From contig JAUXUL010000019.1 of assembly GCA_030680795.1 (NCBI GenBank), positions 1-64,000 on the forward strand: 64,000 bases of DNA, read 5' to 3'. A program made the translations under genes and the position numbers. Of the stretch, positions 38,412-42,965 are shown in pieces; position 1 is the stretch's first letter; each line of letters opens with the position of its first letter. The DNA comes from Anaerolineales bacterium. Its GTDB lineage: Bacteria; Chloroflexota; Anaerolineae; Anaerolineales; Villigracilaceae. The notes under the pieces are model-generated. The model had not been told where the DNA came from. It worked only from the letters and a program-made list of their open reading frames with translations, and searched no databases.

Positions 38412-38690
38412 TCAATAATTATTGCTTAAGGAGCGATTGACCTGCTTGGCCAGATCAGCCAGGGAATCGGCACGAATGGAAATGATCAGATCCTTTTCCT
38501 CTTTGTTTAGCGAGAATGTTTCCCCTAAATAGCCGCTTTGGATGGCTATTTGAGGATCCTGCAGCAGCGTGGAGCGAAATTGTCCGTTGACAACTGCCGC
38601 GGCAAATACCTTGCTAATTCCAGGGGAAATGTTCGATCGTGAAGTGAGATTCATGGGTAAAATATTTTGGTACGTCATGGGAGCGATCAT
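38412..38690 (-). CDS. 92-residue protein resembling RiPP leader/precursor proteins
   Basis: The ATG overlaps the stop of the DUF5317 gene (ATGA), with GAGG nine bases upstream, so it is translationally coupled. The segment ISKVFAAAVVNGQFRSTLLQDPQIAIQSGYLGETFSLNKEEKDLIISIRADSLADLAKQV has the V-x-A-A-V-x(n)-F-R-x-x-L-L-x-D-P...L-x-x-E-E pattern found in Franean1_4349-type and Nif11/NHLP-type RiPP precursors. There is no Gly-Gly cleavage site or Cys-rich core; the short tail is NRSLSNNY. No modifying enzyme is adjacent. Precursor function is an inference from the leader-like pattern only. Confidence 0.6.
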   Translation of the reverse strand: MIAPMTYQNILPMNLTSRSNISPGISKVFAAAVVNGQFRSTLLQDPQIAIQSGYLGETFSLNKEEKDLIISIRADSLADLAKQVNRSLSNNY

Positions 38691-39274
38691 AGGGGTATAC
38701 CTCTTTTCATAAGTTGAATGGATGATTCTGGTTTGGCAAGCAACCAGAACGCGCCAAAGGCAATCAAGACGTCACCGAGGCTGAATGCCACTTGATACGG
38801 GGACCAGGCCGGGGGGAGGAATCGATCCGCCAGCCACTCGAAGCGGGTATCCTGCGGGCGTAGAAGAATGTCTTTCGCGCCGATGCGGCTGCCGGGTTGA
38901 ATATCCAGCAATATATCTTCGGAAACCAGACGGCTTGCCGTCTGCGGGCTGATCGGCATGAAGCCGCTGTTAGCCGCCATAACTGCCAGGTTAAGCGCCA
39001 CCCCGCAAATCAGGATGGGCATGCCCGGGATGCGGCGGTTGAGCCAGGCGAACACGAGTAACAGGATCTGGGAGGCCAGCAGGCCACCAGAAACCAACCA
39101 TTCGGGAAAGGTTTCGCGGGCCATCGGTAGATAAATAACGACGAACTGCGGCAGGAAGGCGACGAATACCAGCCAAAGATGCCCGAGTTCGGGCCCCTGG
39201 TATGGATGCCCGCGCCAGCGCGCCAACGCCAATCCGACCAACAGCCCAGCCACAAGGGCCAATAGTAGAATCAA
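38687..39274 (-). CDS. DUF5317-family membrane protein
   Basis: 195 residues starting at a TTG that directly follows the TAA of the upstream peptide gene. Membrane segments lie at about 1-20, 28-48, 58-78, 83-105 and 165-187. Family marks: ANSGFMPISPQTASRL near 101, then GAKDILLRPQDTRFEWLADRFLPP and SLGDVLIAFGAFWLL at the C-terminus. DUF5317 has no known function; homologues occur in Clostridia and Chloroflexota, sometimes near HD-domain genes, as here. It is flanked by two very small coupled genes. Confidence 0.8.
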   Translation of the reverse strand: MILLLALVAGLLVGLALARWRGHPYQGPELGHLWLVFVAFLPQFVVIYLPMARETFPEWLVSGGLLASQILLLVFAWLNRRIPGMPILICGVALNLAVMAANSGFMPISPQTASRLVSEDILLDIQPGSRIGAKDILLRPQDTRFEWLADRFLPPAWSPYQVAFSLGDVLIAFGAFWLLAKPESSIQLMKRGIPL

Positions 39275-42700: not shown

Positions 42701-42965
42701 CCGCCATGGCCGCGATCAAATACGCAATGAAACGCTGGGGTTCACGATCCATTTCATCAAGAGCCAGCCAGCAGCACGGCAATTCACTTTGATCTGCCAG
42801 ATCAATGAGAAGGGAAGTCTTTCCATAACCAGCGGGTGCAGAGACCAGGATCAACTTTTTATCAAGAGACTCGAACAGAACATCCAACAGCCGCTTGCGC
42901 GTTAGTAATTCCGCTCGGCGGCGGGGAGGGATGATTTTTGTTTTACTTACGAGGATGGCTGACAT
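39741..42965 (-). CDS. MalT-like STAND ATPase with SARP-type (wHTH-BTAD) output
   Basis: 1074 residues. N-terminal NTPase: Walker A [12 protein letters not shown] at 42-53 and Walker B [12 protein letters not shown] near 135-146, as in MalT/LuxR-type STAND proteins. The middle (about 350-800) is a long array of TPR-like helices ([31 protein letters not shown] and others). The C-terminus has an OmpR-like winged helix ([35 protein letters not shown]) and a bacterial transcriptional activator domain (about 965-1074). Such proteins switch on genes when a ligand releases the NTPase. The likely target is the neighbouring operon with the tandem-repeat promoter. Confidence 0.88.
   Translation of the reverse strand: [1074 protein letters not shown]

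Follow-up and report, generated by a model that had tools for sequence, protein, structure and literature searches.

In this work, we mainly focus on a five-gene locus in a 64,000-nucleotide stretch of an Anaerolineales genome (Chloroflexota; Villigracilaceae; GenBank assembly GCA_030680795.1, contig JAUXUL010000019.1, positions 1 to 64,000), hereafter the window, in which a gene for a 47-aa peptide stands between genes for a large SARP-type regulator and a DUF5317 membrane protein, a widespread and undescribed gene set that may let these bacteria communicate. The transcription order on the minus strand is SARP regulator, peptide, DUF5317 protein, 92-aa protein, and PAS-GAF-HD-GYP protein (Table 1). 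The peptide stop codon TAA (39275-39277) directly adjoins the TTG start of the DUF5317 gene, and ATGA forms the overlap between the DUF5317 stop and the start of the 92-aa gene. An earlier reading of the window from its letters alone (the sequence-only reading) had given these positions and both junctions, all of which proved correct when the window was re-read; its MalT/SARP-type regulator upstream, its DUF5317 label, and its HD-GYP gene beside the small genes likewise agree with the matches in Table 1. The SARP gene adjoins the peptide gene, with 313 bp to the peptide open reading frame (ORF), whose longest start is ATG 39427 (50 aa); a length of 47 aa was adopted because the AAGGA Shine-Dalgarno sequence is well placed only for ATG 39418. 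The HD-GYP gene starts at TTG 38314 or ATG 38296. Where needed, loci, genomes, contigs, families, and genera are cited by the handles of this analysis (L, G, C, f, and g numbers).

Table 1. Features of the locus (window coordinates) and the matches that identify them
Feature	Position	Strand	Evidence
STAND-TPR-SARP transcription activator (predicted), 1074 aa	39741..42965	-	BTAD (PF03704) 62.2 bits (cut-off 22.1); TPR_12 96.3 bits and other TPRs; residues 9-359 match MalT (8bob), E 5.7e-31; residues 868-1073 match AfsR (8hvr), E 1.8e-4
Intrinsic-terminator-like hairpin, 3′ of SARP gene	39504..39537	-	15-pair stem, 4-nt loop, T-rich tail
SARP-type operator (putative), TTTTGAAGCCTG x2, 12-bp period	39476..39499	-	Repeat anatomy
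-10-like hexamer TAATAT, 8 bp past repeat	39462..39467	-	Spacing kept across loci
47-aa peptide: basic N-terminus, 13-residue hydrophobic run, G-T-G-A-P, tail EAGGGVGR	39275..39418	-	
DUF5317 membrane protein, 195 aa, TTG start, ~5 membrane helices	38687..39274	-	PF17248 113.7 bits, E 9.8e-33 (cut-off 25)
92-aa NHLP/Os1348-like helical protein	38412..38690	-	NF038399 (Os1348 NHLP clan) 27.3 bits, E 2.8e-6 (below curated cut-off 40); PF14407 (Frankia_peptide) 21.6 bits, E 2.7e-4 (below gathering score 48)
PAS-GAF-HD-GYP protein, 497 aa (predicted enzyme)	36821..38314	-	HD_5 116.9 bits (cut-off 27.2), GAF 51 bits, PAS_4 35.8 bits; HDIGK and GYP motifs read

DUF5317 was found in 27 of 61 close genomes and, in a sample of 400 genomes from across Chloroflexota, in 119; a scan of named genomes of Anaerolineae relatives yielded 58 DUF5317 loci, including those of Bellilinea caldifistulae GOMI-1 and of metagenome-assembled genomes named Anaerolinea, Pelolinea, Brevefilum, and Villigracilaceae. 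Counted over those of the 58 loci that have enough flank for the neighbour concerned, a SARP gene lies no more than 1.5 kb upstream of DUF5317 at 50 of 55, the peptide gene is found at 53 of 57, an NHLP-like gene at 55 of 58, and an HD-GYP gene at 48 of 56, and the peptide stop is separated from the DUF5317 domain start by a median of 6 nt. The sequence-only reading had staked its proposal on conservation of the small genes as a unit, which was indeed found: all five genes stand together at 40 of the 53 related Anaerolineae loci with enough flank. The full locus is present in Bellilinea caldifistulae GOMI-1 (L094), which is a strain record rather than a metagenome assembly. As for how individual loci were scored, L114 and L115 count as peptide-less owing to GAL in place of GAP (the same peptide was seen at L005), as do L107 and L124, where the peptide gene sits past the NHLP-like gene, and the NHLP-like gene was scored as absent at L122 and L127, though another listing has one at both. 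Hybrid histidine kinases replace the HD-GYP gene at L105 and L130.

Together with its relatives, the peptide forms a family of 84 distinct gene sequences (88 sequences minus four chance ones) marked by a basic start, a hydrophobic run, a small-x-[GA]-A-P motif, and a short tail. The search pattern itself demanded a hydrophobic/small stretch of 9 or more residues followed by [GA][AT]P, so the columns fixed in this way, among them the G/A at -1 and the P, carry no weight on their own. Of 113 dereplicated DUF5317 loci, 75 have one or more same-strand ORFs of this pattern within 900 bp (80 ORFs in total), whereas ORFs of the pattern farther off or on the opposite strand number 6 in 836 kb, two of them genuine family members. 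All 84 peptides have G (64), A (16), V (3), or S (1) at position -3 before A-P, within the 12-residue class that the pattern allowed, while position -2 varies; the hydrophobic run is exactly 13 residues long in 79, the part preceding it (N-part) carries a net positive charge in 83, and the tail contains W in 20. The (-3,-1) rule is the cleavage pattern of signal peptidase I, and the peptide layout, with its (-3,-1) pattern and basic N-terminus, fits processing by this enzyme. Peptide matches with E of about 0.001-0.01 inside long frames were treated as chance.

Within the window's family, the ratio of nonsynonymous to synonymous substitution rates (dN/dS) over 15 disjoint pairs, one of which consists of tandem copies, is 0.26 in the N-part, 0.23 in the hydrophobic run, 0.12 in GxGAP, and 0.34 in the tail (0.32, 0.29, 0.20, and 0.39, respectively, over all 123 pairs). 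The range of 0.12-0.34 indicates that the peptide gene is real and under purifying selection, and the tail, with the highest ratio of the four regions, is modestly the freest part between species. This selection on the peptide gene and the recurrence of the unit in relatives show that the gene set is more than a chance arrangement.

Tandem peptide genes occur at five loci, namely L148 (three copies), L002 (two copies), L101, L188, and L044. Copies 1 and 2 of L148 differ in GAP plus tail by 5 synonymous and 0 amino-acid codon differences and in the N-part by 4 and 8; the copies of L002 show 2 and 0 in GAP plus tail and 0 and 5 in the N-part. A tail that is kept among copies in one genome, yet differs between species, is what would be expected of a specific signal. 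In L188, the two near-identical peptide genes (5659-5763 and 9136-9240) lie about 3.5 kb apart, with tails NDWPGG and NDWPGP, and the first is divergent from a SARP gene. The distant members of the family have only about 7-11 residues ahead of the hydrophobic run. A minimal one, MSPRTRKALMNLAALVAVILATGAPQKWG, was found in a plasmid record of the actinomycete Euzebya pacifica. It lies 13 bp ahead of a gene annotated as diguanylate cyclase/phosphodiesterase, and next comes an EAL gene that matches DUF5317 over its first part (tblastn E 2e-5, 29.8% identity). A GAD/GAE variant of the peptide stands ahead of an HD-GYP gene in family f27. An orphan peptide-like C-terminus, IGVGVPLESAVAGG, was also seen at L198:5792-6004 (G439), in a 12-kb stretch where neither a SARP nor a DUF5317 gene was tagged.

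Between the SARP gene and the peptide gene lies what appears to be a promoter-like switch. According to PMC10936776, a SARP operator is a direct repeat whose units lie 11 or 22 bp apart, and 8 bp separate the 3′ unit from the -10 element. A direct repeat with a period of 12 was found in 59 of the 84 peptide upstream regions (20 mononucleotide shuffles: mean 1.3, maximum 3), compared with 15 for a period of 11 and 1-9 for each remaining period from 9 to 25. Of the 39 loci that have the TTGAAGCC/TTGCATCC-type repeat, 37 carry a TAnnnT hexamer exactly 8 bp past it. The period is 12 bp in the window and in most of the peptide upstream regions versus 11 bp in some distant loci and the published 11 or 22 bp; several distant lineages carry other repeat sequences with an 11-12 bp period, and others have no repeat. 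The proposal of the sequence-only reading that the adjacent regulator controls the small genes is thus supported by an operator-like repeat with the published SARP spacing to the hexamer. Its grouping of all these genes in one operon stands for the coupled small genes; the SARP gene probably lies outside the peptide transcription unit, because a terminator-like hairpin and a separate promoter-like switch intervene. The hairpin has the longest stem among 8 terminator-like sites, whose number is not above that in shuffled sequences (mean 7.2), and by eye relatives show similar hairpins at the same place; a single shared SARP-peptide message was dropped because of it. A comparison of the SARP recognition helix with the operator sequence showed differences with too few independent changes, and it was not used.

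Further copies of the operator suggest a wider regulon. With up to 3 mismatches allowed, the pattern occurs at 3 places in the window's own genome (control, 0). One is the operon; another lies ahead of a gene that is truncated where contig C2 ends and whose relative in G001 encodes a dCache-HAMP-GAF-GAF-HD-GYP protein; the third, with 2 mismatches, precedes a gene for an 84-aa LuxR-type helix-turn-helix protein. Across 38 genomes, the search with up to 2 mismatches gave 24 sites, and the reversed pattern gave 1; the peptide operon itself accounts for 13 of the 24, and 11, two of which overlap, lie elsewhere. Of the 14 genus genomes that have DUF5317, 13 have a site (the exception, G003, has a diverged repeat), against 0 of the 10 without it. 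Since 13 sites are those of the operon, the informative part is the distribution of the extra ones: they are present in 7 genomes that have the locus and absent from all 10 that lack it. At least 3 of the 10 extra places read precede HD-GYP genes (one truncated), and two precede RHS/SpvB-type genes. The site in L231 precedes a CHASE3-PAS-GAF-HD-GYP gene, and in L207 (G000 C2, about 685-706) and L237 the operator is followed by TATAAT at 7 bp and then by a dCache-HAMP-GAF-GAF-HD-GYP gene, which is cut by the contig end in L207. The RHS-repeat/SpvB-type proteins, at L233:2-5164 (-) and L236:1-5046 (-) in genus relatives, are about 1700 aa long with signal-like N-termini by eye, and their genes start 117-130 bp from the start of a perfect operator copy. 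A Pfam scan of the genes past the sites, which left out L234, gave no family for those in L232 and L235 and for two of three in L208. The spacing was TAnnnT at 8 bp at 6 of the 10 extra places and TATAAT at 7 bp at 2, with no -10-like hexamer at L231 and L238; the L238 match is not promoter-like and was set aside as probable chance. Because operator copies also precede them, the predicted switch joins the peptide operon to further HD-GYP genes. Between the operator and the HD-GYP gene of L207, a 48-aa hydrophobic small ORF was seen.

The DUF5317 protein is clearly a member of PF17248, for which Pfam gives no function. Its AlphaFold2 model is helical (mean predicted local distance difference test score, pLDDT, 88.4), and about 60 residues separate the last two long helices. 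This intervening segment, which holds the most strongly conserved residues (NGGxMP, D, SxGD) within it and at its ends, probably faces outward according to the positive-inside rule. Foldseek returned no match at E ≤ 0.001 and a follow-up comparison reached Z ≤ 5.2, results that are silent on fold novelty, and a search of PDB sequences with the DUF5317 profile gave 0 matches. Elsewhere in Chloroflexota, DUF5317 often follows an HD-GYP gene, and at L081, L086, L089, and L093, where an HD-GYP gene and, at L081 and L086, also a SARP gene lie upstream, it forms a single protein with an MFS transporter. A role as cyclic di-GMP (c-di-GMP) sensor on the strength of fusions was rejected, the partner being the MFS transporter in the four fused Chloroflexota proteins scanned; only the Euzebya gene combines a DUF5317-like part with EAL, as judged from tblastn and annotation. 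On a Natranaerobius thermophilus plasmid (L200, 3487-5285), an annotated 65-aa protein, a membrane HD-GYP protein, and two overlapping DUF5317 pieces look like remnants of a broken pair of membrane HD-GYP and DUF5317 proteins.

Taken with the gene order, these features may describe an autoinducing peptide circuit, a reading that we favour tentatively and regard as falling a little short of an even chance. The C-terminal part of the SARP regulator would bind the 12-bp direct repeat, whose operator-like anatomy is observed, and would then activate the promoter for the peptide, the DUF5317 protein, the NHLP-like protein, and the HD-GYP enzyme. The 47-aa product would be a propeptide whose first 37 residues serve as a Sec signal, and signal peptidase I would cut it at small-x-G|A-P, releasing a short extracellular peptide that begins with Ala-Pro. 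The released peptide could be sensed by the conserved, probably outward segment of the DUF5317 protein or, after uptake, by the TPRs of the SARP regulator; once sensed, it would raise the output of the same promoter, as positive feedback, and alter HD-GYP (cyclic dinucleotide) signalling. The suggestion of the sequence-only reading that the locus serves sensing or cell-cell signalling is to this extent partly supported, the peptide appearing to be a conserved family with a signal-peptide-like layout.

Several points weigh against such a circuit. The contrast between tail and N-part appears in just 2 of the 5 tandem loci: the pairs at L101 and L188 are near-identical throughout, the L044 pair has diverged throughout, and copy 3 of L148 is without one tail codon, counted as 2 amino-acid differences. 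The N-part in the window's family has about 21 residues with a conserved KINRQHIQ, which is unusual for the n-region of a signal peptide; the tail is short and glycine-rich; and GAP is replaced by GAD/GAE in two lineages and by GAL in one. Within the locus, no importer was recognised. The other Chloroflexota DUF5317 loci, beside HD-GYP or fused to MFS, yielded no peptide of the pattern, and neither did the Natranaerobius plasmid locus, where HD-GYP and DUF5317 are present. Genus g24 keeps the SARP, peptide, NHLP-like, and HD-GYP genes without DUF5317, and its cleavage motif is broken (TKAP, VVQGP). Finally, the locus and site counts share ancestry, and some of the 10 site-less genomes are incomplete (75-98%).

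The main rival is that the peptide stays uncut, as a permanent one-helix subunit of a DUF5317 sensor complex, with the N-part in the cytoplasm and the GAP tail outside, passing the state of the membrane or envelope to the HD-GYP and SARP proteins; we consider this a serious possibility, though we lean against it. It explains the conserved N-part (KINRQHIQ) and the fixed run of 13 residues better than export does, and the short distance from the peptide stop to the DUF5317 domain also favours it. So does co-occurrence: within the window's family in the phylum sample, the peptide is present in 13 of 13 genomes with DUF5317 and in 3 of the 12 listed without it, plus a weak match in G389, and those three are the g24 genomes with the broken GAP motif. 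Because the motif is broken where DUF5317 is missing, this one lineage points to DUF5317 as the partner for which the AP motif is required. Yet g24 retains the peptide without DUF5317, a 13-residue run is short for a membrane helix, the distant members have just a few residues before the run, and the tails are identical or nearly so at four of the five tandem loci. Three other features, namely the tandem tails, the (-3,-1) pattern, and the minimal form of the distant members, are better explained by export than by an uncut subunit.

A broader form of the exported-signal proposal, which we consider rather unlikely as a whole, would hold that peptides ending in [GA]AP plus 4-16 residues ("AP-peptides") are an undescribed pheromone family of Chloroflexota and at least one actinomycete, that DUF5317 is their membrane receptor, coupled to HD-GYP, GGDEF, or EAL proteins, and that the STAND-SARP regulator closes the autoinduction loop, with a regulon that includes RHS-type proteins in some species.

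The sequence-only reading had also called the 92-aa protein RiPP-precursor-like, that is, like the precursor of a ribosomally synthesised and post-translationally modified peptide. The resemblance to the NHLP/Os1348 and Frankia_peptide models is real at the sequence level, with both matches below the curated cut-offs, and the precursor role is judged less likely: we think this protein, whose model is mostly helical (mean pLDDT 77), more likely an adaptor, because the conserved part is the leader-like domain itself. That it is a RiPP or bacteriocin precursor, and the operon product a modified peptide, therefore seems improbable to us. Foldseek matches to nitrile hydratase alpha point the same way as the family models but are non-significant (E 4.5-8.3, 34-41% identity over 32-44 columns), while the protein has no clear core, and no modification enzyme was identified among the neighbours scanned or labelled by hidden Markov models, the unlabelled ones having been scanned in part; for this and the sub-cut-off leader-model matches, RiPP biosynthesis was rejected as the principal explanation. 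Least probable of all is a role of the hydrophobic peptide outside signalling, whether as a toxin that acts on membranes or as a small stress protein of the ordinary kind, a reading that has only its size and hydrophobicity in its favour and fits poorly with its fixed place by the regulator and DUF5317, the copies of the switch ahead of other HD-GYP genes, and the lack of a recognised antitoxin-like partner.

Among known systems, the locus resembles the RRNPP systems of Bacillota (Rap-Phr, PlcR-PapR, and Rgg-SHP), as described in PMC10075063, in that a small propeptide gene with a good ribosome site adjoins a gene for a TPR-bearing regulator, and in that the peptide appears to have a secretion-like N-terminal part and a variable C-terminal tail. 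The window peptide (47 aa) and the other family members (28-51 aa) fall within the 10-100 aa range of RRNPP propeptides, and duplicated pheromones inside propeptides are known there, as PMC11343458 reports. Unlike these systems, the regulator is a 1074-aa STAND-SARP protein, whereas RRNPP receptors measure about 250-500 aa (PMC10075063), and the unit adds a DUF5317 membrane protein and an HD-GYP enzyme in a different phylum, Chloroflexota; because of the receptor size and these additions, the locus was not filed under RRNPP. The regulator itself is, on its predicted domains, a SARP-type activator, sharing NOD, TPR, and SARP parts, a direct-repeat operator, and a -10 element at 8 bp with SARP and SARP-LAL activators such as AfsR (PMC10936776) and with MalT-type STAND regulators. 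It differs in its C-terminal SARP part, behind NOD and TPRs, and in a period of 12 rather than 11 bp, and no biosynthetic cluster was recognised near the locus. The 92-aa protein, in turn, recalls the small Os1348/NHLP proteins of PMC7726476 as a helical protein of about 90 aa with a sub-cut-off match to the Os1348 NHLP clan model, but no modification genes of the Os1349-1351 type were identified and the setting is that of a signalling operon.

Among the open-licence PMC papers and listing entries that our literature searches covered, no prior report links DUF5317 to a small peptide and SARP control; no paper naming DUF5317 and none joining Anaerolineae, quorum sensing, peptide, and c-di-GMP was found, and Chloroflexota with peptide pheromone gave only an unrelated paper. 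The candidate peptide family, the putative switch of the operon, its predicted further copies in relatives, and the apparent contrast between tails and N-parts of tandem copies are new here. If the peptide is a signal, the locus would give Anaerolineae, many of which have been recovered only in metagenomes (sludge, groundwater, sediment, and hot springs), a circuit for communication by peptide, and it would connect a small peptide with HD-GYP signalling. As the operator is precise, part of the regulon can be predicted now in many genomes. Elsewhere in the window, a 1368-aa ORF at 31330-35436 on the minus strand is SecA-like by reading of its sequence and exceeds the usual length of SecA.

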